Below, in pieces: positions 5,958 to 56,255 of a DNA stretch of 64,000 nucleotides. The notes under the pieces were generated by a model. That model made no database searches. It saw only the letters and a list, made by a program, of their open reading frames with translations, and was not told the DNA's origin. A program made the position numbers and the translations under genes. Origin of the DNA: Mytilinidion resinicola (taxonomy: Eukaryota > Ascomycota > Dothideomycetes > Mytilinidiales > Mytilinidiaceae); NCBI RefSeq assembly GCF_010093595.1, contig NW_022985443.1:25577-89576 (forward strand), written 5' to 3'. Each line of letters starts with the position of its first letter. Position 1 is the stretch's first letter.

Positions 5958-8945
5958 CTATAACCCCCGCACCGCCAGTGCCTTCTTTAACGTCTGCTGG
6001 AATCTAGACACATTTTCAGGCCCGATCATGGTATAGTGCTGTCCATCCACCTGCCAAAACTTCAGGTCATCACGGACGAAGTCTACCCAGTGGTTCAGGT
6101 GCTGTTTGCGGTATTCCACGCGATTGCTTGCCACATCCTTAAGCGGCTGGCAGTAGAACACGTCCATGTGCGAGACGTCCCCCGAAGGCTCGTACTCCCA
6201 CCCAATCTTCTGCAACGACCACGATACTTCCGTCCAATTGTGGATGCCGGCCTGCGTGAGCGCCAAGTCGGCACATCGCTGCTGGTCGCTTTCGGCAAGG
6301 AGGCGGGCGACCTGCTCGTCGTGCGGCAATGGGCGCAGCTCGTGCAGGAGCTCTTCAGAACGAGCCTCGGTGATGATGCTGCAGAAATGTGCGATATGCA
6401 CCATCCCCGCGGTCCAGTCGAGTCGCCGCATGCGCGTCTTGATGTGCGGCGGCAGATTGAAGGAGCCGAGGAATTGGACACGATCGCCGCCTGTCTCGAG
6501 CAGTTTGGCGATTTCAAAGGCCAGCATACTACCGTAGGAGTAGCCCGCAATGGCGTAGGGCCCTTGGGGCTGCGTAGCCTTCAGCGCGCGGTGGTACGTT
6601 GAGATGACCTCCTCTTGGCTGGTGAATGGCTGCTCGCCCTCGTTGAGGCCACGGGCGCGGAAGGCGTAGATGGGGCGGTCGGGGAAGTACTGGACCAATC
6701 CGAGGAAGACAAGCATTTCGCCGATTCCGGGATGCAGGAGGAAGAGCGGCGTCTTGTCGCCGTTCGGCTGAAGCGTTACAAGCGGATGGTAAGAAGTGTC
6801 GGTTTGTGGCCCCTGTATGCACTTTATAGCCGCTGCGAGGGTGCGAATAGTGGTGTTGGTCATGATGGTAATAATTGGAATGTCTTTGATTGCGAAAGCT
6901 TTCTCCGCCGCTCGTTTAAACCGAATGAGGTCTATCGAGGTGACGCCTATATCGAGGATGGGGGTGTCGATGTCTATTTCAAACGAAGCGACCTGGAGAT
7001 CGCGGAAGACGCACATCAACTTCTGCTCCATGGCATTGCCCGGTTCGGCCACATGATCTTCTCGATATGCTTGCAGCATTTGGGCGTCGATTTCGGCTTC
7101 ATCTTGATATTCCCCGTTTTGGAACGACGTCCGAACCTTTGCTCGAGACAGCTTTCCCAGAGTGGACCGCTCCAGACGACCAGGAGCCAGCGGCAACACC
7201 CGTGGTCGCGCGCCCGCAAAGAAGAGCACAGCGCGAACGACGGCCTGCAGCGCATCCATACGCGCTTTGCTGTCATATGCATCGTAATCGCGTTGATAAA
7301 TGATCTGGATGTGTTCCGTGCTAGCGCCCGCCGGACGGTGGGCGAAGCACACGACTCCGGAGAGAGCCACGCCCGCAATCTCGGCCTGATCGATGGCGGT
7401 CTCCAGCTCGTGGGGGAGATACTTGACGCCGTTGACGATGACAAGGTCCTTCGACCGCCCCACAAGCCGCAGAGTCTCAGACGCGTCAATCGTGGCCGTG
7501 TCGCCCGTGCGAAACCAGCCATCGTTAGTGAATGCCTCTTGGGTCGCCTCGGCGTTATTGAAATAGCGCTGGAAGACGATGGGGCCACGAACTTCAAGGC
7601 CGTCGTTCTTAACACGCATCTCGATGCCAGGCACACACGTTCCCAGAGCCGTGAACTCGGTCCCAGTTTGTACATCAACCTCAGGACACTTCCGGCTGTA
7701 TATCGCGCCGGCGCACGTTTCGGTCATGCCGAAGCCAGGCGTGAGGGTGGTCGTCGTGGGGGCACCGAGCATGCGGAGATGCGCCGAAATCTGAACGCAG
7801 ACACCGACACTGTTCGGTTCACCGCCAGAAATCAGGTAGAGCAGCTCTTGGAGGTCGATTCCGCGCAGGTCGGCTGCTGGTCCAGCATCTATCAGCTGCT
7901 GCAGCTTGGCTAACATGAAGTTGGGCGCAAATGTCCTTGCAACGCGGTGCTTCGAGAGGAGGCGTAGGAAGACGAACGGGTCGGCAATCACCTCAGTTGT
8001 GGGCACATGGACTTGATCACATCCCGCAACCATGGCAGTGAGGTGGAGCTCCGTCAGGCTGCCAACATGATCAAGTCCAATCCAGTTCAATACAACGGCG
8101 CCCTGCGGCAAGGGCATATGGAGTAGCTTTCCTTTACATGCTGTCAAGATCTGCTCATGGCTCAAGCAGACTGCTTTGGCAGCGCCTGTACTTCCGGACG
8201 TGAGCATCAACGCAGCGACATCTTCCAATGAAGTGTATTCATCCGCTCGGGATCCGCCTTCCTCGTGCGTATTCTTATCAGCTTCGTTATGCTGAACGCT
8301 GCCAGCGGAACTGGCGCTTGTTCCATAGCTAGAATCAGTGTCGTTATCGGAAGTCGGCTCGTATTGGGAGGAATTTGAACTATCGTCGCCACCGTCCGAA
8401 CTTGGGGCTGGCTTTGAAACAATCGATTTGAGGGAAGCCTCCGGAAGACTATTAACGTTGGCTTCGGGTGAGATATGAGCAGGGGCCACGGCGACTTCCT
8501 TGAACTCGAGCGCCTCGATGACTTCAGCCGACGCGCAAAGAAGGAGGGTGTTCTCCGCAAAATCGGTGCTCAATAGTTCCTGGGACGTGATAACGATTGG
8601 ATCCAGAAGCAAGCGATGTAAATGCGCCAAGTGAGATGCGCGACCTTCATGGTTGTTGACCAATGGCGTCGACATGGCTGGAACGCAGCCCGCCAGGATG
8701 CTGGCCCAAAACCAGATTATGTTCTCCCGGTGGCTGCGGAAGTGAACCAGGACAATTCGACCAGGGACCACGCCATGGTAACGTCGAAGACAGCTGGCTC
8801 TGAGTGATGCCTCATTGCGAAGTTCACGGTAACTCAGGTATTCTGGCGGGACGTTTTCCGCAGTATAGAGGATAATGCCAGCCTGTCCGCTCGCACACTT
8901 GTCCAGCAAAGCTTCAAGCCGCGGTTCAATAGCAATGACTGACAT
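5958..8945 (-). CDS. NRPS-like A-T-TE enzyme (arylpyruvate quinone/furanone synthetase family)
   Basis: One exon encodes 995 residues. Domains: adenylation (about 1-600) with TSGSTG at 249-254, GFGMTET, GWFRTGDTA and LGKLSRAK; a carrier domain (about 615-690) with the phosphopantetheine Ser in DIGVTSIDL; and a type I thioesterase (about 715-990) with GYSYGS (Ser803) and GQHYTMI (His970). Where many such thioesterases have Asp, this one reads SFNLPPH. The A-domain stretch with GLDHVGSLTEL and RTFAPNFMLAKL resembles the TdiA/MicA/AtrA-like enzymes. Those activate arylpyruvic acids, load them on the carrier and dimerise them in the TE to quinones, furanones or dioxolanones. A Ser/Asp/Glu-rich insertion of about 60 residues (about 176-236) sits just before TSGSTG. 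The gene is divergent from the rhodopsin-like gene. Aryl-acid specificity is inferred from resemblance; loading of another acid or release of the PKS chain is possible. Confidence 0.9.
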   Translation of the reverse strand: MSVIAIEPRLEALLDKCASGQAGIILYTAENVPPEYLSYRELRNEASLRASCLRRYHGVVPGRIVLVHFRSHRENIIWFWASILAGCVPAMSTPLVNNHEGRASHLAHLHRLLLDPIVITSQELLSTDFAENTLLLCASAEVIEALEFKEVAVAPAHISPEANVNSLPEASLKSIVSKPAPSSDGGDDSSNSSQYEPTSDNDTDSSYGTSASSAGSVQHNEADKNTHEEGGSRADEYTSLEDVAALMLTSGSTGAAKAVCLSHEQILTACKGKLLHMPLPQGAVVLNWIGLDHVGSLTELHLTAMVAGCDQVHVPTTEVIADPFVFLRLLSKHRVARTFAPNFMLAKLQQLIDAGPAADLRGIDLQELLYLISGGEPNSVGVCVQISAHLRMLGAPTTTTLTPGFGMTETCAGAIYSRKCPEVDVQTGTEFTALGTCVPGIEMRVKNDGLEVRGPIVFQRYFNNAEATQEAFTNDGWFRTGDTATIDASETLRLVGRSKDLVIVNGVKYLPHELETAIDQAEIAGVALSGVVCFAHRPAGASTEHIQIIYQRDYDAYDSKARMDALQAVVRAVLFFAGARPRVLPLAPGRLERSTLGKLSRAKVRTSFQNGEYQDEAEIDAQMLQAYREDHVAEPGNAMEQKLMCVFRDLQVASFEIDIDTPILDIGVTSIDLIRFKRAAEKAFAIKDIPIITIMTNTTIRTLAAAIKCIQGPQTDTSYHPLVTLQPNGDKTPLFLLHPGIGEMLVFLGLVQYFPDRPIYAFRARGLNEGEQPFTSQEEVISTYHRALKATQPQGPYAIAGYSYGSMLAFEIAKLLETGGDRVQFLGSFNLPPHIKTRMRRLDWTAGMVHIAHFCSIITEARSEELLHELRPLPHDEQVARLLAESDQQRCADLALTQAGIHNWTEVSWSLQKIGWEYEPSGDVSHMDVFYCQPLKDVASNRVEYRKQHLNHWVDFVRDDLKFWQVDGQHYTMIGPENVSRFQQTLKKALAVRGL

Positions 8946-11718: not shown

Positions 11719-13626
11719 ATGAACTATCAAGACGAGGGCGTTCCCACAGTGGCTGCGCTGCAGATCGAGAAGCGCTATGGTGAAGAGCGCGCGAAGCGAC
11801 TCCGCGACGACGGCGACAGCCAGTTCGTCGACATCTCCCTCTCCGACAAATTCCATTCCTTCCTCGATGATCCATGGGTCGACGCGGCGCCCGTCAAGAA
11901 CGCAAGCTCCATGTTTCCCAACAATCGCTGCCAGGTGCTCATCCTCGGCGCCGGCTGGGGAGGGTTGCTGTATGCAATTCGCATGATCGAGACCGGAGTG
12001 CGCCCCGAAGACATTCGAATCGTGGATCGCGCGGGCGGCTTCGGCGGGACCTGGTACTGGAATCGCTACCCGGGACTCAGCTGCGACATCGAGAGCTACT
12101 GCTACCTGCCACTGCTAGAAGAGACCGGCTACGTCCCACGCCACCGCTATTCCTCTGGAGAAGAGATTCGCCAATATGCCGACCTCGTCGCTCAGAAATG
12201 GGGAGTGGCCGACAGCGCTGTCTTCCAGACCAAAGCTGAGACGCTAGAGTGGGATGAAGAGTCGAAAGAGTGGCAGGTGGAGCTTGTCCAGCAGCGCCAC
12301 GGAGAGCAACCCCAGACGCTGCACATCCGCGCGCCGTTTGTGGCGACGGTGAACGGCGTACTCAGCTGGCCGAAGCTGCCTGGAGTCCCAGGATTGCTGG
12401 ACTACCAGGGCCATGTCTTCCACTCGTCGCGCTGGAACTACGCCCTCACTGGTGGATCGCCGGAGGACCCGTCCCTCACGAAGCTGCGAGGGAAGCGAGT
12501 GGCCATTGTAGGCACGGGGGCAACAGCTGTCCAAATCGTACCTCACCTTGCGCGCTGGGCAGAGCATTTGTACGTCGTTCAGCGCACTCCAGCGGCCGTC
12601 GATCACCGTGATCAGCGGGAGACGGATCCGGAGTGGTTTCGCAACGAAGTGGCTACAGCAGCGGCATGGCAGCGCGAGCGCTTGAGGAACTTCCACCAGC
12701 ATTTCACCATTGAGAAACAGCCTTCAATCAACCTGGTAGACGACTGGTGGACCGGTGCTGTTGGGATGGTGGCCATTGCAGGTAACGCCGCGGGACCCAA
12801 GGCTATGGATGAGCTACCAGCATACATGCAGAAGCTCCATGCCATGGACCTTCCTCGCCAGCAGCGTATTCGTAAACGTGTGGAAGAGGTGGTCAAAGAC
12901 CCAGTTGTCGCGAAGAAGCTGCAGGCGTGGTACCCTACGTGGTGCAAGCGTCCTACCTTCCATGACGAATATCTCTCGACTTTCAATCGCGAAAATGTCA
13001 CTCTCGTCGACACGGACGGCAAGGGCCTCGACCACCTTACCAATGACTCCATTGTCGCAGGCGACGAGTCGTACCCCGTGGACGTCATCATCTATGCCAC
13101 CGGATTCCGCTCACCATTCACTGGGTCCCCAGCGCAAAAAGCCAACATGACCATCATCGGCCGCAATGACGTCTCGATGAGCGAAGAGTGGGCGCGCAGC
13201 GGGCCATCGACGCAGCATGGTGTTCTCGATCACAACTTCCCCAATCTCTTCCTTTCCGGGCCATGGCAGGCCTCCAACAGCCCCAACTACCTGTTCAACG
13301 TGGACGCTCTCGCGAAGCATTCGGCATATATCCTGGCAGAAGCGAAGCGTAAAGCTGGCGGGTACCCCTTCGCTGTGACAGCCACCGCTGCCGCAGCGCA
13401 GGATTGGGGCGTGCAGGTGCTGATGCGCTCGCCGCCCATGGCTGCCATAGCGGGTTGTACGCCGAGCTATTTCAATGTCGAGGGCGGTATTGACCGCGCA
13501 CCGCCCGAGATGCAAATGATCATGGCGCGATCTGGGCTTTGGGGGCATGGCATTGAGGACTTTATGAGGGTTGTCGAGGCATGGCGTGAAGAGGGCAGTA
13601 TGCAGGGCATCGAGGTGTCGACGTGA
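11719..13626 (+). CDS. FAD-dependent Baeyer-Villiger type monooxygenase
   Basis: One exon, 635 residues, with the ATG in a strong context (CCACCATGA). The FAD-binding Rossmann motif VLILGAGWGG is at about residues 74-83. The stretch YWNRYPGLSCDIESYCYLP is the classic BVMO active-site and FAD region. The BVMO fingerprint appears as YQGHVFHSSRWN, with Tyr and Asn at positions usually Phe and Pro/Asp. A second, NADPH-binding Rossmann motif VAIVGTGATAVQ follows, then VVQRTPAAVDHRD. Length and motif order fit the cyclopentadecanone/steroid monooxygenase branch rather than small FMOs. The expected reaction is oxygen insertion next to a ketone to give an ester or lactone, or a related hydroxylation. 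It is convergent with the DUF3237 gene and lies between the two megasynthases, so it is a likely tailoring enzyme. Confidence 0.92.
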   Translation: MNYQDEGVPTVAALQIEKRYGEERAKRLRDDGDSQFVDISLSDKFHSFLDDPWVDAAPVKNASSMFPNNRCQVLILGAGWGGLLYAIRMIETGVRPEDIRIVDRAGGFGGTWYWNRYPGLSCDIESYCYLPLLEETGYVPRHRYSSGEEIRQYADLVAQKWGVADSAVFQTKAETLEWDEESKEWQVELVQQRHGEQPQTLHIRAPFVATVNGVLSWPKLPGVPGLLDYQGHVFHSSRWNYALTGGSPEDPSLTKLRGKRVAIVGTGATAVQIVPHLARWAEHLYVVQRTPAAVDHRDQRETDPEWFRNEVATAAAWQRERLRNFHQHFTIEKQPSINLVDDWWTGAVGMVAIAGNAAGPKAMDELPAYMQKLHAMDLPRQQRIRKRVEEVVKDPVVAKKLQAWYPTWCKRPTFHDEYLSTFNRENVTLVDTDGKGLDHLTNDSIVAGDESYPVDVIIYATGFRSPFTGSPAQKANMTIIGRNDVSMSEEWARSGPSTQHGVLDHNFPNLFLSGPWQASNSPNYLFNVDALAKHSAYILAEAKRKAGGYPFAVTATAAAAQDWGVQVLMRSPPMAAIAGCTPSYFNVEGGIDRAPPEMQMIMARSGLWGHGIEDFMRVVEAWREEGSMQGIEVST

Positions 13627-15347: not shown

Positions 15348-18300
15348 TTATGCCCCACTCTCAAGCAGCCCCATCTTTCCAGCAACAAGCATCGCCAACT
15401 TCTTAATCGTCAACGTCGGGGCCAGCAAATTGTGGAACGAAATCTCCAGCACAAACTGCTTGAACAACCAGTTACGCAGCTCAGCCCCAATCATACTATC
15501 GATTCCAGCGTCCGCAATCGAAGTGGTATCGTAGTCGAAGTTCTCCGTCGGGACCATCAAGATGCTTGAGAGCTTCTTCGTGATGTACTCGCCCAGCACT
15601 TCGATAACATTGGCACCGTTGGCTTTAGCCTCCTTGACGACGCTCTTGATATCTCCACCCGAGCCGCTCGACTTCGCACCCGCACCGGCCTCGTCGATAG
15701 CGATGAGGAGGTTGGAAAAGCGGGCATCGTTGTACCAGAACGCATCCGGACTTTCTGCACTCAGATTCGCGGCAGCAGCAAGAAAACTCGGCTCTAGACC
15801 CAGAATTATCTGCGCATCGTTCACATCCTGCTTCCCAGGAACCGGTTTCGGGCGCATCATAGCCGTCTCAAAGCCCTTCAGCATCTCCTGCTCGTCGATG
15901 CCGTACATCCCCTGCCGAGATAGACTGAGCTCGATCTCTTGGTGCTGCGCGACGTAGCCGACGTCTAGGATCATGGGTAGAATTAGAGAGACGGCTGGGA
16001 GGCCTTGCTGGTTGCGATGCCAGGCGAGACCGTCGAGGAAACCGTTGCCGGCGCAGTAGTTGCTTTGGCCTGGCGTGCCTAGGGTGGCAGAAATAGAGCT
16101 AGTCATGACGAAGAAGTCGAGGGTGTGGCCTGCGAGGGCGTCGTGGAGGCACTGTGCTGCGCTGACTTTGGGGGTGATGGAGGTGAGCCATTTGTCGTAG
16201 GTCATTGTTTCCAAGATTGAGTCCTATGCAATGTTAGCATCATCTAGCCAGCACAGCTATGGCGTCGACGAGAGACATACTTGTAAAACCATAGCAGCAT
16301 GCACTACGCCTCTGACGGGATGCTCAGCTGAGATAGACGAAAGGGCTCTCGCAACACCTGCGGGACTCGAAGCATCGGCACGGAACACCTCAACATGGGC
16401 GCCTCGCTTCTCAATCGACGACACAAGTTCCGCTGCTTCCGGCTTATCTGCGCCGGAGCGAGACAAGAAGGCGAATCTCTTAGCTCCTCGCTCCAACATC
16501 CATGAGGTCAGGCTTCGTCCTAGACCACCGAGACAGCCGACCAGAAGATAAGTGGCATGAGGGTTGAATCGGAGTTCGTCAGAGGGCGGTTGAAACTGCG
16601 GAAAGGTCAGCAGGCTGGATGCTATTGTGAAGTAGTGTCCCACCTTGATAGAACTTTGCCCGTAGTTGTACTTAGCGATCACACTCTCGGAGCCCTTCGC
16701 AGACTTTACAGTCCGCAGGATCTGTTCGAATAAGCCAATGTCGATGATCTCCTTCTTCTCCGTCAATAGAGCCCCCTGTCCGTTTAGCAGGCCCAATGTG
16801 CGGCTCAGCAGACAGCCAAGACCGCGCTGGTCTCGCTTGTAAAGAGCCTCAACACCGACGGACAGGAAAGCGGCGCCTCGTGTGTATGGAAGGACATCTG
16901 GTGGTTGGTCAAGTGTGGCGTCGATGAGAACGAATCGACTCGATGGTTTTGACGACCTCCATGCTTCCTGTGTTAGAAGGGAGAAGTCGTGCGCGACCAC
17001 AACATCGGAGACAAGGTAACCGTCCGAATTGAGGTTGGTGCCTAGCTCCGAAGCGTGTGAGACGAGTATGATGTTTTCCAGGCTGAGTCCATGTCCCGAC
17101 GCATACTCATCCTTCTCCGCTTCGCTTTCGACCACCACGTTGAGTCTAAGCCCAAGGATCTTGCTGAGCTTGGCCGCCGCCTTGACAAAGTCCCGAGGAG
17201 CGGGTAGCAGAAGAACTTGCTCGCTGTGATCGACTTTCGCTGTCACAATCAATGCGTTGACGACTTTGCATAAGCTCGGAAGGGTGGCCGCAAGATCCTC
17301 ACTGTTGAAATGCTCGAAAGTATTGCAAAGATACTTTGGAACGGTTAATTTGGTCGAGAAGGCGCTGGGAGCGTAAGTAACGCATTTGCGACCGACCATT
17401 GATGAATCGAGACTAGGTGCAACGCGGAGAACTCTTCCTGTGACGACCTTCGGCGACTCAGAGCTGAATTGCTGAAGATTTTTGCTTTCGAGCTCAACTG
17501 ATTCTACTAGGATCTCTAGCTCGTCTTTGCAGAGGTCCGACTGCTTGTCTTCCGAGTGGAAGACTAGTTCTCCGTTGGTAATCTTGCCATGGAGCGCCTG
17601 ATCTCCAGCGAGAATGGTTTCCTGAACTGACTTAACGTTTGTGAATGCATTGTTCAAAGCCTCATTAGGATGAAGTCGGCAAGTCTGGATAGTACCGTCG
17701 TGCAGCCAGAACTCGGTATGTTTGCCGCTGTCTTTGGTAGCAACTCTCGCCAGCGTGACGGTCGATGCCTGAAGGACGTTCAGGTCTTCCGTAGTATCGA
17801 AATCGAGCAGCCCAATCTTGGCCATTGCCATCTCTGACCTGATAGCACGTAGAAAGCCCGCTACCATGGCACCTTGCGGGCATTTGCCCTCATTCACGCC
17901 GCTAGTGAGCCAGAGGATAGGGACATTGGCGGACAAAACTGATTTCAAGATCTGGAACGTGTCGGCAGTCAAAGAGGAAAGAAGAGAGCCGTAGATATCG
18001 CAGATGACAAGTTTCCCTTCTATTTCTTCGCCCAAAGTACTAAGATCTTTGGTGGGAAGACCACCGGTGATCTTTTCCATCTTCTCGTCTAACGTGTGAT
18101 TGTAGACCAATGTCGCATTGGCCCAAACCGCGGCGAAGTCGATTTCGGGTTGTATCTCTGGAGCAGGTTCAGGTGTCCAACTCTTGCTCATATAGGGTTG
18201 CCGCTTCTTTGGAGTTAGAGACTCTTGTGGCAGAGCCGCAGCATATTCAACGCAGCGCAGTGACTTGATATCTAGCACAGTTTTCCCAGATGGAGTCGCA

Positions 18301-21300
18301 AGCCTGGTGTGAGTATTAAAATAACGGCCATCCAGCTCGTCGGTATAGGCAAGTGCCTGGCCTATCGAGTCGGCCTCTTCCTCTGGCAGCCATAATGAGA
18401 CTTCTTCGATATTGATGGGAACGACACCCCACGGCATCGTCTTGTGCTGACCAGCTTGGATGGAAATGATGATAAGGTGAAGGCAGGCGTCGATTGTTGA
18501 AGGGTGCAGGATGTACCTGGACTCTCCCTTCATCAATCCGCTCTGCTTCTTGACCTGGACATCGGCGGCGGCTTCATGGAGGGTGCCATTCGTCTTGATA
18601 TCCTCGAGGCCCTGAAAGCTGGGCCCGTACTCGAAGCCGACGCGGTGGAAAGCCTCATACCATGTCTTGCCGGTGACTCTTTGGGTCAGAGCTGGAAGAG
18701 AAATGTCACGGAAGCTGCCGACTGGGGGCTGAGCGCGGAAGTTGGCTGCAATTCTGCCTTCGCAATGTACGTTCCAAGTGCCCTCGACGATTGATTCCAC
18801 GGTAAACGAGTACCAGGATGAGCCTTCGGACGCGTCAGATGTTGTCAATTGCTCGAGACGAAGCTGAATTTCGATCCCGTCGTCCGTGTCTGGCACAACG
18901 AGGGCGACCTTAATTGCCACGTCGCGTAAGGTGACGCTAGAGACGTCCAGACCGTTGGTCTCGCAGGTCTGCCGCAGGCCCTCGATTGCAAGAGATAGAT
19001 GTCCCGCCGCAGGGAAGAGAGTCTCTCTGCCGAGAGAATGGTCCTTCAGCCAAGGGATGTCCCGGTGTCGTAGAACATTACGCCAAACTACAGAGTGGTC
19101 GGAAAGCCCTAGGACCCGGCGGCCAAGTATATCGTGGCGATTGTACTTCATGAAGCGCTGCTCTTGACTAGCCCGGGACTCAGCGAAAAATCGTCTCTCA
19201 TAGTTCCATTGGTAGTGGGGAAGATCGACTAAAAGAGAGGGACTCTGGGATCGTTTCAAGGAACTCGTGTTGCTGAAGTCATCGATCTCGTTAACTCGCT
19301 CGAGGTCCACCGGGTAGTTGCGCAGGAAGAGTTCACCAGCGACCTTCAGAAGCTGGGAACTACTATCTTCCCCGCGAACAAAGCTGGGAATATACGAGAA
19401 ATCCTTGAAATCCCTTGCCTTACAAATCTGCTTGAATGGCCCGGCCAGTGCTGAATGAGGACCGACTTCAACGATGCATTTCACGTCCGCCAGGTCGGGC
19501 GTGCTACCCATCTCCGTTACGGCAGAGTCGAAACGAACTCGATTTCGTAGATTGTCGCTCCAGTAGTTAGCAGACAATCCTCCCTGTATTTCCTTGCCCG
19601 TGACGGAAGAAATCATCCTCGTAAGATGGCGTCGCCAGCTGAACTCGTCCGGGTCCATGGTTTGCAATGCTTTGAACAGCGAAGCGTTGTAGAAGGGCGC
19701 TACAGCCTCCATCTGCGGGGAATGATAGGCCTTTCCAGTCCGCAATTCACGCGCAAAGACGCCTTTCTCGTCAAGACGGCTTCTGATTTCCTGGATTGAC
19801 TCTGAAGTACCACTCAAAGTGACGCTGCTTGGGGAATTCTCACAGGCAATAACAGTGTCCGGTGAGCTTGAAAGATACTCCGTGGCCTCTTCCGCGCCGA
19901 GCCCGACGGCAAGCATAGTCCCAGTGGGGGCATGACGCTTGACAGTATAACCGCGGTAGAAGGCAGCGACGACTGCTTCGGGGGCTGAAATGAGACCAGC
20001 AGAGTAGGCAGCACCAATCTCGCCGCTGGAGTGTCCGAAGGAAACCACGGGCTCGATGCCCCAGCTGGCAAGGATATCAACGAGGGCAATCTGAATGGCG
20101 GTGCAAATTGGCTGGGTGATTTCGGCATCATTTATGTTGATACCGTGCATTTCTGGCGCTATCAAAGCGTCGGTGAGTGTCCAAGCCGGGGGCGATGGGA
20201 TGTTTCTCAGCACTTGATCGAGATCTTTGATGGTGCTGGCGAAAGACGGGAACGTTTGCATCGCTTCAAGACCCATCTTAGCCCACTGGGCACCTTGTCC
20301 TGTAAACATGAACCCGACTTGAGGGGGCTTGCTGGTAGCCGAGCCAAATCTGAATGATGGCACAGCGAAGTCGGTGCTGAGAGTCGCATCCTTCATGATC
20401 AAGAAAGCCCGTTGAGGAAATCGAGTCCGTCGAAGGTTGAGGGTGTATGCGAGGTCTGCTGCGTAGTAGTTGCCAGCCACCGTACCATGGGCTTCGATGT
20501 TTCGAGACAATGTAGCCTTGTCATGTGCCGACATCGTCAGTAGCAATGGGCGCGATGTAGAGTGATCGTAGGCGGCCTCGGCCATAGTCTTGCCGTGTGA
20601 GTACCACGGATAGAGGTTCTCAACGCCCTCTACGATGACATGACCATTGGTACCCCCGTAGCCGAAACTGTTCACAGAAGCACGTCTCACAGCAGAGTTG
20701 GTTGGCCATGGCTTCGTTTCGTGGTGGACCTTGATGTTCCAGCCTTTTTCATCAACTTTTGAATTGTCAGAATGAGACCTTTTCCGCAGACTGGGAGAGG
20801 AACCATACTTTCAGGGTTGAGACTCTTGAAGCCAGCAACACCTGGAATCACTCCAGCCTCAGTGACTAATGCGGCCTTCATCACGGCGAAAATACCGCTG
20901 GCAGCCTCGCTGTGGCCAATGTTTGCCTTAATCTGTCCCATATCGCAACTTTAGTTTCCGGACATGTGAGTAGAAGGAGACGACATACCGCTCCGATAGC
21001 CAATGGGGCATCTTTGCTTCGTGTGTCGTTCATAGCATTAGCAACAGCTCGGACCTCGATAGGATCACCCACTGGCGTGCCAGTGCCATGAAGTTCAAAG
21101 TAGAGAGTTTTAGCAGGATCCAATCCCGCTCTCTCGTATGCAGCTCGAATAACTCGCTCTTGGCCCTTGACGCTGGGATGCGTTATGCCCATGCTTGGGA
21201 CTTTACCATTTCTGTGAAAGGATGTCAGCAGTACATCGCAGCCCCGTATTCGGGCACCCGGGGTTGTAAACGAAGACTCACGTGTTGACCGCAGAGGAGC

Positions 21301-43209: not shown

Positions 43210-45427
43210 TCATAGAATCTCCACAGCATCGTGAAACACACCCTTTTCCTCTTCATCATCTGCGTCGTCCCCAAGGTCGTCCAACGTTGTCGCAAAAGGT
43301 CTTTCTAGCTTCTTCAATATCCCGGGCAACTCGTTGACATCTTTCCGAAGCCGCAAGTAATCCATCGGCGAGAAACCATCATTATCCACCGCATGGACTT
43401 GTGAACTGTCAACTCTATGATTAATCAAGAGCTCCCAAATTCTTGAATTGGTAACCTTTGCCGCAAGATGCAGTATGTTGATCCCGCTATCATGGTCGAC
43501 GTTCACCTTAGCTCCTTTCTCGAGAAGAACATGAAGTGTTTCGTACGCATTCACCTTGACGGCCTTTTCAACTGCGGTCCTTCCCCAATGCAAACACTTC
43601 TCTTCAATATTCATACCCAGATCACAAAGAACCGCTGCAGGGGGCATTGCCTAAGCTTGCAGAAACCAAGGCGGTCTCGCCAACTCCATTCCGGACGTCG
43701 AGCTCAGCGCCTGCCTTAAATAGAAGCAACATGATCTCAGGATGGTCTCGCATAGCTGCGTTGTGCAAAGGCGTACTACCCCAGATATCGCCCCGCCGAA
43801 TGTCCGCTCCGGCTGATATGAGGGTTGTCGCGACATCTAAGAAACCGAGCCCTGCCGCTAGACTCAGCGGTGTTTTGCCGTTTCGGTCTTGAATCTCCGG
43901 ATTTGCGCCACAGCGAAGCAGATGATAAGCAACCTCGGCCTTCCCTTGACCAACTGCCCAGTGCAGGGCCGTACGACCGCGAGAATCAATTTCGTTAATA
44001 CAATCTCGTGATTGGCAAATTACACGGTCGAGGTCTACTATCGTCAAGCCCAGGACGGCTTTGTGGAGCTGAGAAGAGGAGTCGAAGTCTTCCGGAGAGA
44101 AGTTCAGGGCGGCCGAGTGCCAGAAGTCTTCCGCGAACCCTAGAAGATCTCTGATCAACTCCGATGTCGAGATTGACGATAGATATTGGTAGTAGCGGTT
44201 CTAAAAGAGCTTAATGTCGCTAACACGGCCGTGGATAATAGACATGTCACGAGTTCCTCCCATCAGTCTGAGGAAGTCGCTTACTTCCTGCCGCCCAAAA
44301 CTCTGGGCGAGGGCGAACACAGACATACCATACGGCCCTACAATGTCCATCGAAGACGCCGCACCGATACTAATGAGCTCTTTGACTCGAGTGCAATCTC
44401 CTTGCCGTACACTTATAGCGATCTCGGAGTCTGGAGGCACTATTCTGGGAAAAGACAAGGTTATCCGTGGCGAAGGCCCGCTCAACAAAACCAGTCCGAC
44501 AGCCCGTGCAAGAAGCCATCGAGGGAAGTAATACACAATCGATAGTACAGATTCTGACTTCCATCGACATTGAAACCTATCGCAGGTGGAAGCTGAAGGG
44601 TTTAGAGGATTTCCGATGACGTTGACGTAGAGCGACCCGAAGGAGCCGTGCCATTGACTGACTTCGAGCCGTGTTCGACGATGACAGCGGCATTCGCAGA
44701 ACCTGGGACAAGAAAGGTGACGCTCTGAAGAAATTTGGCTTCCGACGATGCTCGAGGATACGCTTTCACCTAAGCGCAGTTGACTGCTTGCCAGTAATAG
44801 CTTCTGCGACTGACTGACGGCGTGATACAACTTGGGTTTCTCTAGACGGACATCAATCTTCGACACCATCTCGGATATAGCACCTTATACCTCTACCACA
44901 ATCCTGTGCAGCGCACTCTGAATTCCCGCCCGATCAGACTCGAAAATTTTAGCGCATTCTCCAATCTGCGGCACCGTAACAGCAATTTGCCTCTGCAACG
45001 ACAAGCTGGACGCAACTAACTGCAACGACAACAGCGCCTTCGCATCCCTCAGCTTCTGCAGCAGCCGCACAACCTCGGCCTTCTTCCTCACCCAGCTTGC
45101 CCTCCTAACCTTCATCTCGCCCACACCACCCACCCCTCCCACTACCGGCTTAAGGCACTTGGTCTGAATTAACTCCTTAATCTGCCCTAAGAGACGATTA
45201 CAGGACCCTAAGAGCTGCAACAAGATGGGCAGTTCTGTCGCCGGGAAGATGGCTGTGCTCGACTCCAGCCTCGCCAGGACCTGCCGCAGATCTAGCACTT
45301 CGTCAACAAGGTCCCGGACCTCTTCTGGCGCGACGAGATAGGGCTTTATGGTTGACGACAGAATAACGATGCGGTCGACGGCTTGGCCGAGAGAGATAAC
45401 GCTTGCGATGATGGTTAGAGGGTCCAT
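43210..45427 (-). pseudogene. Ankyrin-repeat protein with Fungal_N-like N-terminus, broken
   Basis: Read on the reverse strand from the ATG at 45427, one frame runs with two stops (TAA after IVVEV near 44885, TAG after SDIKLF near 44201) and then needs one frameshift in the C-run near 43640. Parts: an N-terminal helical block MDPLTIIASVISLGQAVDR as in fungal STAND/NACHT N-terminal domains; a Cys-rich patch CPRFCECRCHRRTR; a hydrophobic segment YYFPRWLLARAVGLVL; then ankyrin repeats (GRTALHWAVGQGKAEVAYHL, GKTPLSLAAGLGFLDVATTL, GSTPLHNAAMRDHPEIMLLL and more); and an acidic tail. The sequence on both sides of each stop stays in frame and family-like, so single CAA to TAA and CAG to TAG changes could explain both. 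Such proteins are thought to act in fungal innate or allorecognition signalling. Confidence 0.7.
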
Positions 45428-46828
45428 GTCTCATCACAAGTCACGCAACACTGGCTGGCGAGCTTCGATGAGCCTCTAAGGGTGTCAGAGTATTCCGTTA
45501 GAGGGTCAGCTTCGCGTCCTCTACATAGACATTTCTTTAATAAAAAAGAAATCAGAGCTGATTCGATAGGGTCTTGGCAGGGTTAGAAACTCGTTAAAAC
45601 TCACCAGGTATTATTGACAGATCTCTGATCTAGTGTTGTAAACCTTCAGATTTGCATGCCCCTACACAAGGATTGGGCTTTGGCCGACTTTTCTATTCTA
45701 CCATTGCGCGGGGAGGGCACTCAGCTGAAGCGAAGTGTTGATTTTGGGCACCAAGAGGGGTTCGAGGTCGGTTGCATGGTGTTTGCCTTTTGGCCGCCTC
45801 ATTCTGAGGCAGTTCCCCATCATTTGGGCATAGGGCCGCGTTGAATGGACCCGACAAAGCGTCTCCAATGGTCGTCGTAATCCAGAAACTTCGTTCTTAT
45901 TAGTAGAACAGCTGCATGGTACCGATGGGGATCCCGTATGGGCCGGAAATAGTCACCGGTAGCGATTGCAGACGTACGGGATGAGGAGATGGAGAACGCC
46001 GTCGGCCATCTAAATGCAGCTCGTGGTCTGGAAGCTGAGCTCGAGAAGGCTGAAGCATGCATGCTGTGCAAATATGTGGGATGCGGCGAAAAGACCCCAG
46101 ATTTACAAGGAGTCGCATCGTATGCCGATCCATGTATTCGAGCCCAAGTTCCCAAGTATTCTCGAAGTTTTCTTATCGTCATATTCAGTTCCTCGTTAAA
46201 CTTATAGCCCAGTCATCTCCAAATCAGGCCATAGCCACGAACACTCTAACAACCACCATAATCCTTCAAGCCTCTCCAGCAGCCTCACCGAACGCCGCAA
46301 GCTCTTAGGCCAGCTTCCTGACTTCCACCCTCTGTTCAAGCTTTTGTACGCGTCCGATCTTTAATCTATATTCCATTAAGCTCCCTCGCGCTTATCTTCT
46401 CTCTCAACGTCCAACCCAGTCTTCTCAGCCTTGCATATTTGCATCAGTAGCTAGCAATCTTCGATGCATTTTCATTGAGATTAGAACCGCTGAAACATCA
46501 CCTCGATTTGCAGCCTCCGGCATAACGCATGTGGAAAACACGCTGGACTTTAGGCCACCTGGATATTTGCTGTATGGGCCAATGGTAAAAGTGAACGTCA
46601 TTGTTGAGCACGCAGTATTTGCTACAGTTTGGCCAAGGGCTGACGTTGAGGTCGTTGATAGCTCCTCTCGCTAGCGCTAGCAGGCGGGAGATGCGGTGGG
46701 GATGCGGCGATGCGGAGAGCGTGGCGCCAGGCTCCTATTTCGTCTCGAGCCTCTCTTCTGTCCACTCCCACTTCATCTCAGTGTCGAAATTCAACGGCCC
46801 GTCCACTGCTTAAACACTGAGGCGAAGA

Positions 46829-47393
46829 ATGAGACCTCCGAGCGCCTGCCCTGTAAGCATTATCAGTTCAGAAGCCGAGCCTGCTGGAGGATCTCCGGCC
46901 TCAACGATGGCATCTTCCAAGCTGTATGAAACATGGCCCATCCATCCCGGAAGAATGGAAATCGGATTACTCGAGTTTCGACCGCCTTTCTCCGATGCTC
47001 TGAATTGCGCGCTCTCTGTCGTGACCCTCAAAAACGGGCCTCCGCCGTTCATTGCACTCTCATACGAATGGGGCACCGACGACTCCAACCATGTCATGTC
47101 TGTCGACGGCCACGACATCAGCATACGACACAACTTGTGGCTGGCATTAGAAACTATCATGAAGCATCATCCAAGGCTTGTGGAGGATTGTCGAAATCAT
47201 CACCAGCGACTCCGTCAAGAGTTGCAAAATGTAGGCATTGCATCCAGCACCTGCCTTTCTTCCTGCTATTTAATTCATCCATCTGGCTTCACAGATCCAC
47301 TGCGAGTGGGGTGTTCCAGACGTAGCCCACCCCACAGACTCCCTATTCATATGGGCCGACGCCCGTCTGCATATATTCCTATAGAACCGCAAT
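46829..47393 (+). pseudogene. HET-domain gene fragment
   Basis: The frame from the ATG at 46829 carries the beginning of a HET domain: IGLLEFRPPFSDALNC, then PPPFIALSYEWGTDDSNHV and a helix with HNLWLALETIM. After about 130 codons the domain loses family resemblance, and a piece with LFIWADA, the second HET motif, appears in another frame. It is followed by the direct repeat at 47366. HET proteins trigger cell death in heterokaryon incompatibility. This copy cannot make a full domain. Confidence 0.6.
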
Positions 47394-50159: not shown

Positions 50160-52714
50160 ATGTCTGCCGCTGCCACTTCTGGTGCTGAGAGTGTGGGTCT
50201 CGTGGGTCTCAGGAACACGGCTACGAAGAACAAGCTCAGTGACACCGTGGTCCCTCTCTGGGACCTTGAGTCCACAGACAACAGTATCCCTACTGCAGAG
50301 GCCTTCAATCATGTGAACCCTGGAGTCGAGTCTGTTATTGGCGGCGACGAGGTATTTTCAAAACCCCCAGATGGTTCGCGTCTTGACGCTAATTCTACCC
50401 GAGCGTGTGCGTGTTTCCAAAGAGCACTTCGCCGCTGGAGGCAAATATCGCTGTGAGTAGACTCTGAACTGAATGAAGAGAGAAGAAGCTGATCGGACTA
50501 GCCATTGTAAAAATCTTCTTGCGCTATGAAAACCAGAAGCCCGGTGCTCGATGGCCCATTGCTACAGGATGGCTCATTCGTCCTGATCTTCTAGTGACCG
50601 CTGGGTAAGCTTCACATCCCGTCTAACTAATGTTACCCTCGCTGACTTTTGAAGCCATTGCGCTTTCGATTGGGCTCACAACATGGGTCGCCTTGTCCAA
50701 GTCAAATGTTACATCGGATATAACGGCAACAATTCCATCAAGGACTACTCAGCCAACGTCCAGTGCCGCCAGGGCAAGCGCGTTGCCACGACCCTTGACT
50801 GGCTCACAGCTAAAGGAAATCGCGCTTTCGATGCTTCTTTCATCCTTCTTGACTCCCCTTTTGAGGGTATCACGCCGTTCAAATTTGCAGATACACCCCT
50901 TTCGGGTTCCATGTCTCTTGGCGTTGTGGGTTATCCTGGTGACTTGAAGGATCCTGCTACAAACGAACCCGGTGCCCATATGTACGAAATGTTTTTACCA
51001 ACCAAATTTAATTTGGTCGACTCCCAATGGCGTATGTTGGAGTACGAGATAGACACCTTTGGAGGTAAGTTACGGCGAATCAAGCCCGAAGGAAATCTAA
51101 TAACACGTCCTAGGCAATTCCGGATCTCCTGTCCTCCGCGAAAGCGATCACGTTGCTGTAGGCGTCCACGTCTACGGAGGTTCTCCCAATTCTGCCTCGG
51201 TCATTGGTCTTTACGGAAACCCCTTCCTTGACTATGTTGCTGCTTTCGATTTGCATGCGCAAAAAGTCAAGCTTCCTGGACATTCTTCCACTCCGGGCGT
51301 GCAATACATCACGGTCCCAACCTCAAAGACTCCAGACGTCGTGCAAGGCAATGTTGATCTCAACAGTGGAAAATTCGGCACTTTCACCTCTGAGCGCGGC
51401 TTCTCGCATGGCATCCACCAGACCGCCTCAAATGGAAACGGAACTAGTCATCATCGCAATGAATACCACGACAAGCATCAGAATGGTCATGCAGCTCACG
51501 AGAGCAGCTGGATTGCCAGAACGTCACCACCTCAAATCACATACACACGCACTGCAGCCATGGAAAACCCGAGAGGAGGTCGCGGATCGCTCCCACCAAT
51601 CCAATACCACACCATGGATGAAGAAGGCTTCTTTACTATTCTCAAAGAGAGCATTAGGATCAGCGGCCCGATTTTGAAAGGTGTCGTGGGTGTTGTGGGC
51701 CCCATGGCTCTCGGACCCCTCGGTGGACCCGTATCCGCTCTAGCAGGTCTTGCTATCAGCGCCGCTGGTAAGCTTGCTGAGACAAGCACCGGCGCTGAAA
51801 GCGCTATGGATGCCGCAGAGCCTCCACCGGGTCTTGCAGAGCGTGCCATCCTTGCAGAAGCTGCGTTTGTGGCCATGACCAAGATGAACAATCAGACACT
51901 CGCGGAGGAGGGTTTCTTCGACGATATGTGGCAGGTTGCGCGCAAAGTCATTCCTGTTGTGGCTCAAGTTGCGCCCAAGATTATGGACGTGGTAGCACAG
52001 CCAGCGCTCGCCATCGCTGTTGATGCTCTTGGGAACCGCAATGAGACTGAGGGTTTCTTTGAGAATTCTGCCAACGGAGCCCGCGCTTCTCAGCATGGAC
52101 GTGCACGCCACCATCCAGCTTCTCATATCCATGCGACGACAGGTGCTGAAGCTTTCATGGCACGCCTCGAGCATGCGAGCCAACAAGAAGAGGGCTTTTT
52201 CGGCAGCCTCGGCCAGATCATCTCCACAGGCATCAAAGTCGCTGGGCCGGTACTTTCAACAGTAGCCAAACATGGGCTCCCCATTCTGCAGGGTATGTTT
52301 GCTGAAGCCGATTTCGACGAGACTAGTGCCCCACCAGTTCTGGCTGGCATGGACGGCCTTCACCAGCGAGCAATTCTCGCCGAGGCTGCCCTTCAAGCTG
52401 CTATGAAGGCACCTCAACATGTTCTTGAGGAAGAGGGCTTCTTCGACTTTATGGCTGCGGCTGTGGCCAAGATTGCCCCTGTAGTTATGAAGGCAGCTCC
52501 AACAGTCCTTAGGGCTGTTGCTCCTGTTGTCTCGGGAATGCTGAGGGGAAACGCGGAGAGTGGAATGCTGTCCGCGGGTGGACGTGGGGGGCATGGCCTC
52601 CGCAAGATGGCTTCAAGCAACTCGATCCGCGGAGAGCCCCGCACCGGGTTTGGGGCTAATCCTGCTCTGTGGAAGAGCATGCAGTCTCTGCAAGTCCAAG
52701 GAGAGTCTTTCTAA
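50160..52714 (+). CDS. V8-like glutamyl endopeptidase fused to five E-GFF hydrophobic segments
   Basis: Five exons (50160-50351, 50404-50452, 50502-50604, 50655-51064, 51114-52714; introns 49-52 bp) join to 784 residues. Residues about 65-290 form a chymotrypsin-fold protease: His116 in VTAGHCAF, an Asp in AFDASFILL and Ser254 in GGNSGSPV. A Thr five residues before the Ser (DTFGGNS) and a His about 16 after it (GVHVYGG) match the S1 residues that give staphylococcal V8 protease its Glu specificity (Thr164 and His184 there). The second half holds five motifs E-G-F-F, with Gly at 423, 518, 565, 612 and 693. Four lead into long Ala/Val/Ile/Pro-rich amphipathic stretches, and most follow an acidic linker such as LAEE or LEEE. 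There is no signal peptide. Self-cleavage after Glu would free peptides starting GFF. The domain assignment is firm; the processing model is inference. Confidence 0.9.
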
Positions 52715-54668: not shown

Positions 54669-56255
54669 ATGAGACTGATCCACGCTCGAAGCATTCAACT
54701 TGTGGATGTCATCGAAGAAAGCAGGCCGCTCTATACCATTCTATCACATACTGGGGAAGAAAATGAGGTTTCATTTGAAGACATGCAAGGCCCTCATGCG
54801 ACCAGTAAATCGGGATATGGCAAGATCAAGTATGCTTGCCAGCAAGCGCTTGAAGATGGATTAGAGTATGTGTGGGCCGATACTTGCTGTATCAATAAAA
54901 GTAGCAGCACCGAGCTATCCGAGGCCATAAACTCGATGTTTCGTTGGTATAAGAACGCGTGGGATTGCTACGCCTACCTCGCGGATGTACATGTACATGG
55001 CTCCGACGTCCTCTCTCAAGACGCCATCGACGCAGCATTCGCGCAAAGTAGGTGGTTTATAAGAGGGTGGACACTGCAAGAACTACTGGCACCTTCAGAA
55101 GTGCACTTCTATTCTAGTGACTGGGGCAAGCTGGGCACCAGGTACACTCTTGCCGACTCTATTTCAGCAGTTACCAAGATTGATCGCGCCTTTCTGCTAG
55201 ACCGCGAGACCATTGGACAAGCAAGTATCGTAAAAAGAATGTCTTGGGCATCAGGGCGAGTGACCACTCGGCTAGAAGATACTGCATACTGTCTCCTCGG
55301 TATCTTCGACGTCAATATGCCGTTACTCTACGGCGAGGGCGAGAAGGCTTTCATCCGATTGCAGGAAGAGATCATGAGACATTCAGATGATCAATCGCTC
55401 TTCGCATGGGGTCAAGAGGATGAACCGCATTGGATGAAAGCGAATCCGACTAAATATGTACGTGGATTGTTGGCAAGCTCTCCAGCCGAATTTTCGACTT
55501 GCGGGAACGTTATTCCCGACGAGTTTGCGGAATTGGAGGAGCCGCACGCTCTCACGAATAAGGGCGTGCGACTTGCACTTCCTGTGTATAAGAACCATAC
55601 TCCTCCGCGCCAAAATATGGCGCTTTTAGCCTGTCGCTCTGAAGATGACCTACTGCAAGTCTTCACCATGCCTCTCAAGTTCATCGGACGAGATCAAGTG
55701 GCTAGAACCTGCATTAAGCCTCGTCTTGTGCCGCGAGATCATGTGGTGGACGTGGAAAAAAGAGTTCTTTACATGAGGCAATCGTTGCAAACATATGGAT
55801 CCTCTGGTATCGCAAACATCTCTCCTATATCGTTCTTCATACGAACTTTCCCTACGGATTTCTCTATCAGAAGCGTACAGCCCGCTAGCTGTTGGGACGC
55901 ACGAAATCGAGTAATTCGCCCGCCACGTTCTGTCACTCATTGCGAAGAAAATTGGGAAGCAAAGATCCTGATAGCCGTTGATCACGAAGACGTTACAGAC
56001 TGGGTGATATTAGTCGGTTCCTCCAACGGACGTCCTTATTCTTGCTTCATCACCGAATCGGATTACCATATGAGAAACGGGTTCGGACGCCCCACTCGTT
56101 TGAAAAGCAACATCAGCGATTTGTCTCACAACGTCGAAGTTGTCATTACCCATGGAAGACCCGTCGAATCAATGGGTAGTTACATGAGCTTTATAGATGT
56201 TACCTGTCTAGGTTATGTCCGAGCAGTGGTACCAGCTCAAGTGGAACTGAGATAG
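54669..56255 (+). CDS. HET-domain protein (HET-E/DUF8212-like)
   Basis: One exon, 528 residues, from an ATG giving the classic start MRLIHARSIQLVDV. HET domain: block 1 ILSHTGEENEVSFEDM, where the normally conserved Trp of SHTW is Gly; block 2 YVWADTCCINKSSSTELSEAINSM; block 3 SRWFIRGWTLQELLAP. The stretch RLEDTAYCLLGIFDVNMPLLYGEG is the usual link to the C-terminal region, which has no NACHT or WD repeats. Proteins of this kind work in vegetative incompatibility, where the HET domain promotes cell death after non-self contact. It is the only intact HET gene among three broken relatives here. Loss of the SHTW Trp may weaken function. Confidence 0.9.
   Translation: MRLIHARSIQLVDVIEESRPLYTILSHTGEENEVSFEDMQGPHATSKSGYGKIKYACQQALEDGLEYVWADTCCINKSSSTELSEAINSMFRWYKNAWDCYAYLADVHVHGSDVLSQDAIDAAFAQSRWFIRGWTLQELLAPSEVHFYSSDWGKLGTRYTLADSISAVTKIDRAFLLDRETIGQASIVKRMSWASGRVTTRLEDTAYCLLGIFDVNMPLLYGEGEKAFIRLQEEIMRHSDDQSLFAWGQEDEPHWMKANPTKYVRGLLASSPAEFSTCGNVIPDEFAELEEPHALTNKGVRLALPVYKNHTPPRQNMALLACRSEDDLLQVFTMPLKFIGRDQVARTCIKPRLVPRDHVVDVEKRVLYMRQSLQTYGSSGIANISPISFFIRTFPTDFSIRSVQPASCWDARNRVIRPPRSVTHCEENWEAKILIAVDHEDVTDWVILVGSSNGRPYSCFITESDYHMRNGFGRPTRLKSNISDLSHNVEVVITHGRPVESMGSYMSFIDVTCLGYVRAVVPAQVELR

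Follow-up and report, generated by a model that had tools for sequence, protein, structure and literature searches.

In Mytilinidion resinicola, a V8-like protease is joined in a single chain to a long tail carrying five EGFF sites, in a 784-residue protein whose gene lies on the plus strand at positions 50160-52714 of the window (the whole stretch of DNA that was analyzed, 64,000 nucleotides). This observation is confirmed and, as far as the searches reach, the fusion is a real and widespread protein design that is undescribed within the open-licence literature searched. Comparison with related sequences suggests that the tail is better read as an array of four amphipathic segments, each with a conserved Glu at both ends, than as an array of five. 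The likeliest explanation, at about even odds, is that the protein is an intracellular, self-processing, Glu-specific zymogen that would free amphipathic helices to damage the membranes of the cell producing it. The evidence counted for the zymogen reading comprises the catalytic triad and specificity pocket of the protease, a conserved Glu at residue 57, the Glu residues at the segment boundaries, the hydrophobic moments of the segments, and the presence of a split version in the same genome. Counted against it are the predicted fold of the uncut tail, columns away from the boundaries that are about as Glu-only, an inner Glu in segment B, the small share of rows with all eight boundary Glu, relatives in which the sites and the catalytic residues are not lost together, and the ordinary Glu-free runs of the tail.

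Gene Structure and the Protease Domain

The gene is composed of five exons (50160-50351, 50404-50452, 50502-50604, 50655-51064, and 51114-52714), separated by four GT-AG introns of 49-52 bp at 50352-50403, 50453-50501, 50605-50654, and 51065-51113. The splice sites were inferred from the GT-AG signals and from agreement with relatives, and the same approach reproduced letter for letter two annotated proteins encoded on contig C17, the 1132-residue paralogue P0138 and the protein P0209. No annotated record of the 784-residue protein itself is present among the fetched matches, and the gene model is that of this analysis.

The N-terminal pro-region, recognized from alignment and hydropathy, spans residues 1-57 (50160-50330, plus strand) and ends in Glu57. 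It is followed on the same strand by a V8-like protease domain of the S1B type (approximately residues 58-300; 50331-51259, with introns in the span), for which Pfam, structural relatives, and alignment all provide evidence. The Pfam matches are to Trypsin_2 (8.3e-8) and Trypsin (5.5e-6), and the best relatives of solved structure are the glutamyl endopeptidase 1p3c (2e-7) and, lower, the V8 protease 1qy6 (3.2e-5). The triad expected of S1B enzymes is found within this trypsin-like domain, with its codons at 50656 (His116), 50830 (Asp174), and 51119 (Ser254). These residues are kept in 114 (5 gapped), 117 (2 gapped), and 117 (2 gapped) rows, respectively, of a main alignment of 121 full-length rows, made up of the 784-residue protein and the 120 of 208 fetched proteins that are longer than 600 residues. 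The Thr at -5 and the His at +15/16 that mark the Glu pocket of this family are represented by Thr249 (codon at 51055), exactly five residues before Ser254, and His270 (51167), exactly 16 after it. The spacing is read from the sequence and the alignment, and we take the roles of the two residues to be those of their counterparts in V8 protease. His270 is invariant (121/121) and position 249 is Thr or Ser in 117/121 rows. The protease class, the triad, and both pocket residues claimed in the sequence-only reading are thus borne out, and the enzyme should cut after Glu.

At the presumed activation junction, E57|S58, 17 of the 121 rows have a gap, and Glu stands at position 57 in 102 of the other 104. 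The putative mature start is of the S-V-I-G type, as in Bacillus glutamyl endopeptidases. As had been noted from the letters alone, no hydrophobic N-terminal signal is seen, the highest Kyte-Doolittle value for any 19-residue stretch starting before residue 40 being 0.49. Weak PADLOC matches of the protease domains of the relative P0002 (residues 97-277) and of P0138 (residues 100-268), to RT-Protease_XI (1.5e-6) and LmuA (0.0014), probably reflect only the shared trypsin-like fold.

Organization of the Tail

The EGFF sites begin at E422, E517, E564, E611, and E692, and every GFF (5/5) in the last 384 residues is preceded by Glu; in 20,000 shuffles of this stretch, EGFF occurred on average 0.006 times and at most once. 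The original count of five sites stands, but the array is now read as four segments bounded by Glu on both sides rather than five. In the 121-row alignment, the residue after column 564 is Ser in 73 rows, Ala in 21, and Gly in only 12, so that the EGFF at 564 is read as the C-terminal end of a segment rather than the start of one. Nor is the Gly an essential part of the junction, as had been supposed: after the Glu at 422, 517, and 692, Ser is the commonest residue besides Gly.

Along the plus strand, segment A (residues 423-474, between Glu422 and Glu474; 51626-51781) is followed by an acidic linker 1 with a conserved ERAILAEAA helix (51782-51910), segment B (residues 518-564, between Glu517 and Glu564; 51911-52051), a linker 2 that is His-rich in M. 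resinicola (52052-52192), segment C (residues 612-649, between Glu611 and Glu649; 52193-52306), an acidic linker 3 with a conserved QRAILAEAA helix (52307-52435), and segment D (residues 693-733, between Glu692 and Glu733; 52436-52558). Column ranking, segment statistics, hydrophobic moments, and AlphaFold provide the evidence for segments A, C, and D and both acidic linkers; that for segment B comes from alignment, column ranking, segment statistics, and AlphaFold, and that for linker 2 from segment statistics and hydrophobic moments. The tail contains an internal duplication (51602-52564, plus strand) whose halves, A-linker-B at 51602-52057 and C-linker-D at 52127-52564, are 32% identical (single-pair E 4e-17). 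The segments are 38-52 residues long, with net charges of +2, -2, +1, and +2 for A-D. Linkers 1 and 3 are clearly acidic, as proposed (-5 and -6, respectively), but linker 2 carries only -1. In the 784-residue protein itself, the four longest stretches of the tail without Glu add up to an ordinary total length, which 914 of 5000 shuffles reach.

The amphipathic character suggested for the segments is upheld by their best 18-residue hydrophobic moments, which for A-D are 0.52, 0.59, 0.48, and 0.56, values reached by only 7, 23, 4, and 10 of 1000 shuffles; those of linkers 1-3 are 0.41, 0.28, and 0.42, reached by 72, 816, and 97 of 1000. As hydropathy in the protein peaks at 1.47, and the usual cut-off for transmembrane spans is near 1.6, the segments seem to be amphipathic helices and not typical membrane-spanning ones.

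AlphaFold predicts the 384-residue tail to consist of helices only, with no strands (pLDDT 74, pTM 0.76). In the numbering of the model (model residue + 400 = protein residue), helices are placed in the first half at 21-34, 39-42, and 52-77 (A), 92-107 and 111-116 (linker), 119-162 (B), and 196-207 (linker 2), and in the second half at 214-226 and 231-249 (C), 259-283 and 286-291 (linker), 294-334 (D), and 368-383. The boundary Glu residues, at 22, 74, 117, 164, 211, 249, 292, and 333 of the model, are all at or no more than three residues from helix ends. Segments B and D and their linker helices are mostly predicted with pLDDT 80-95, and A and C with lower values, about 43-91 by block. The full-length relative P0002 is likewise predicted as a confident protease with a helical tail (pLDDT 77, pTM 0.59), and fold searches returned no significant match of any kind. 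From these models, the uncut tail is probably a folded, all-helical, duplicated domain with its junctions at helix ends, in which the conserved linker helices (R-A-x-L-x-E-A-A) could pack the segments. A stable globular fold had been named as a result that would speak against freed peptides; the models point to such a fold for the uncut precursor, with which release after cutting is still compatible.

Family Distribution and Conservation of the Boundary Glutamates

With the tail as query, 163 proteins matched at E <= 1e-3, and with the protease domain 266 protein clusters matched; 120 of each are listed. The listed members come from ascomycetes that include Trichoglossum, Apiospora, lichens, Hypoxylon, Aspergillus, Penicillium, Fusarium, Verticillium, Geopyxis, Ascobolus, and Dactylella, all of the Pezizomycotina. 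The same fusion is widespread among these listed proteins. Among the 120 listed tail matches, the catalytic Ser motif is present in 57 and either that motif or the following GxHxYG motif in 87; the remaining 33 include 25 that, by motif check, start with the last part of the protease domain, 7 that start beyond it, and P0004, which is full length with broken motifs of a kind that intron-ignoring gene callers could produce. On these counts the tail nearly always goes with a protease, the exceptions being the free-standing array P0209 and its relative P0210. In a Pfam scan of 21 diverse members, Trypsin_2 was found in all 21 and no family covered the tails at E <= 0.01. Three of the relatives, P0008, P0019, and P0121, carry the name "ATP synthase F1" in their public entries, apparently through misannotation.

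In the 120 listed tail matches, 221 of the 225 GFF sites have Glu directly before them, as do 60 of the 70 in 88 further listed protease matches; with related forms (GFL, GFM, GLF, GIF, etc.) included, the counts are 346/370 and 141/169. Relatives among the listed tail matches have thus kept the Glu before GFF, as the sequence-only reading anticipated, and have not lost the Glu-Gly junctions. By column, Glu is found at 422, 517, 564, 611, and 692 in 85, 75, 118, 110, and 109 of 121 rows, and column ranking shows Glu to be conserved at three further positions, 474, 649, and 733. All eight are present in 26 of 118 rows and seven or eight in 69 of 118, in segment statistics from which P0138, P0183, and P0004, left out for differing C-termini or a doubtful-looking gene model, and odd-length rows for each segment were dropped.

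The boundaries are also biased toward Glu over Asp. The eight segment-end columns contain 766 Glu and 20 Asp (119 rows, P0138 and P0183 dropped), as compared with 736 Glu and 939 Asp in the other acidic tail columns more than two residues from the boundaries (1082 and 1000 with the nearer columns included) and 36% Glu in 31 acidic columns of the protease domain, a column being counted only if it has 30 or more acidic residues. A need for charge alone would allow Asp, whereas a Glu-specific protease would not. This bias is not unique to the junctions, however, as columns 421, 480, 494, 500, 516, and 610 are about as Glu-only, and 577 and 596 nearly so. Across the family, Glu makes up 9.4% of the linkers and 2.2% of the segment cores, and Asp 6.1% and 3.3%, respectively, so that Glu drops more than Asp. 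After their sixth residue, segments A, C, and D are free of Glu in 74/118, 72/117, and 82/117 rows; segment B is so in only 17/118, most rows having an inner Glu there.

In a rival explanation, which we consider possible but less likely, the tail is never cut and forms a stable helical domain, serving as an inhibitor, an adapter, or an anchor in the membrane; the protease cuts other proteins, and the Glu at helix ends serve charge or packing. An all-helical duplicated fold is predicted with fair confidence, and the similarly Glu-only columns away from the boundaries point the same way. The two top-ranked conserved columns are Arg residues of the linker helices rather than Glu, and several hydrophobic positions are also conserved at least as well as Glu; because the linker Arg outrank Glu and the uncut tail is predicted to fold, part of the conservation of the tail is structural. 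Nor do the boundary sites simply track activity. Where a catalytic residue is changed, 3 to 7 of the eight boundary Glu are still present (P0169, Ser for His, 7/8; P0173, Ala for Ser, 6/8; P0135, Asn for Asp, 4/8; P0208, Ala for Ser, 3/8), and a Fusarium group (P0181, P0187, P0188, P0200, and P0208) is without Glu at the N-side junctions of B, C, and D, leaving one of four N-side Glu, even in P0181, which has Ile at 517, Lys at 611, and Ala at 692 but retains the catalytic Ser. What weighs against an intact tail is that Glu at helix C-ends, in such excess over Asp, is unlike the capping preference of helices, whose caps favor Asp, Ser, Thr, and Asn; that Glu is avoided inside segments A, C, and D; and that the protease, itself of the Glu type, also has a conserved Glu at its putative activation site.

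A Separate Protease and Array in the Genome

When the genome was searched in six frames (E <= 0.001), a single further array and a single further protease came to light besides the 784-residue gene, and both lie on contig C17. The second V8-like protease, P0138 (minus strand, start at 587,067; L010:751-4568), has retained both Glu-pocket residues, Thr and His, as well as the Glu ahead of the mature start, but its tail differs from that of the 784-residue protein. This tail is composed of a Ser/Gln/Asn-rich stretch and then a region of roughly 300 residues without a significant Pfam match. The free-standing array gene P0209 (BDZ99DRAFT_539257; 591,588-593,234; L004:4089-5735) encodes 548 residues and no protease; it shares the linker motifs and Glu-bounded segments and includes three near-identical EELFG...GES units. 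The two genes are divergent and about 4.5 kb apart. The location of this array beside the only other protease, in one genome and with other genes possibly intervening, suggests that the two may work together. Downstream of the array (L004:6900-8736) are more uncharacterized frames, one with a hydrophobic stretch, and two scanned pieces of this region gave no significant Pfam match.

Between P0209 and an 81% relative in Lophium mytilinum, the core of one unit is largely different while the Glu frames are the same, a comparison of two sequences only. Such divergence within a kept frame, together with the amphipathic character and net charges of the segments, would suit an outward role, in which self-processing takes place but the helices are antimicrobial, antagonistic, or communication signals that leave the cell by lysis or unconventional secretion rather than agents of suicide. 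With no signal peptide or export route seen, and with segment B acidic and C nearly neutral, we regard this as improbable.

Genomic Neighborhood

The surroundings of the gene had been described as allorecognition-like. A HET-domain gene (Pfam HET 3.5e-10) is found at 54669-56255 of the window and a sub-threshold HET match near 46814-47250; however, HET neighbors are weak evidence in a genome with at least 151 HET matches, and the listed NACHT matches include none on C17 and none closer than about 137 kb to the 784-residue gene. A PigL_N match is located at 44885-45430, with ankyrin-like repeats, judged by eye, alongside it. Farther off, a large minus-strand frame at 16257-20585 resembles a polyketide synthase by eye, and frames at 5958-8945 and 11719-13626 appear biosynthesis-like on the same basis.

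It is very improbable that the tail is a decoy or sensor for foreign proteases of the Glu type, for instance viral or bacterial ones, to whose cut the protein's own protease domain would respond. Such a role would draw on the presence of V8-like proteases in bacteria and, according to PMC12779748, in an oomycete virus and its relatives, and on the protease sensors of fungal death pathways (PMC12881547). Against it, a protease of the right specificity in the same chain makes a foreign one unnecessary, and no NACHT receptor gene is listed near the 784-residue gene or the C17 locus.

Comparison with Known Systems

The protein resembles the bacterial V8-type glutamyl endopeptidases (S1B) in its triad, its Thr/His Glu pocket, and its detectable similarity to 1p3c and 1qy6. 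The bacterial enzymes known to us are secreted; the fungal protein, in contrast, has no visible signal peptide and carries a long helical tail. At prokaryotic V8-like loci, no Glu-bounded array was seen by eye in the 10 of 14 loci with a readable frame. A protease and a membrane-active part in one chain, should the tail prove to be such a part, is a design known to us from viral polyproteins and, as separate genes, from gasdermin pairs.

In viral polyproteins, a built-in protease cuts its own chain (PMC13067793). Those chains yield virion or replication products, whereas the present one is encoded by a cellular, intron-bearing gene of many ascomycetes and its predicted products are helices. 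Kex2-processed repeat proteins (KEPs) offer a second parallel, as precursors in which protease sites set off a number of peptides (PMC7329392, PMC9769878, and PMC6339444). KEP peptides are cut by Kex2 and released outside the cell, unlike those envisaged here, for which a Glu-type protease is provided in the same chain; in the 784-residue protein there is no secretory signal by hydropathy, and the segments are flanked by Glu junctions rather than by dibasic Kex2 sites.

In the fungal gasdermin-protease pairs (HET-Q1/HET-Q2), proteolysis activates a membrane-damaging protein, the genes are linked, and the protease is of the CHAT or S8 type (PMC12881547). These pairs use a subtilisin-like or CHAT protease and a separate gasdermin, as opposed to a V8-like protease and helical segments in one chain. 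The tail is predicted to contain helices only, the gasdermin pore-forming domain being beta-rich, and no Pfam gasdermin match is found at E <= 1. The resemblance to release of gasdermin from its inhibitory part by proteolysis would be one of working alike only. HeLo and HELL are intracellular helical membrane-targeting domains, for which the 784-residue protein has no Pfam match at E <= 1. Death effectors with these domains are activated by amyloid templating (PMC7885112), whereas here a protease is fused in the protein itself.

No description of a fungal Glu-type protease with such a tail was found among the top-listed titles and abstract openings of the open-licence literature, and within that scope the earlier statement that no fungal system of this design is described still holds. 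The words "trypsin," "glutamyl," and "polyprotein" are absent from the main text of a review of fungal death pathways (PMC12881547), as are "trypsin" and "glutamyl" from a survey of fungal NLR effector domains (PMC9815663).

A Proposed Course of Self-processing

In the self-processing reading, the protein would be held in the cell as a latent zymogen until some trigger releases the activity of the enzyme, which would then cut after Glu57 and so activate itself at E57|S58. Further cuts, predicted from the conservation of Glu, would follow the Glu at the helix ends of the tail, in cis or in trans, and part the four segments from the RAILAEAA linker helices that would pack them in the uncut protein. 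The freed helices, in a step predicted from the amphipathicity of the segments, would insert in a membrane and damage the fungal cell that made them, regulated death being the likeliest outcome because no signal peptide is seen. In its fullest form, as a one-chain fungal suicide or defense device with self-activation at E57|S58, a tail cut into membrane-breaking helices, and split versions that act in trans, the proposal can be advanced only tentatively.

Implications

The self-processing reading predicts exact cuts, after the eight named Glu and after Glu57, and the Fusarium group without N-side Glu offers natural material with which to ask if self-processing has been lost. If the reading is true, it would explain a large set of genes that, among the listed matches, are mostly labeled "serine protease" or "hypothetical protein," and many ascomycetes, to judge from the 266 clusters of the protease search, would carry a one-chain effector of death or defense.
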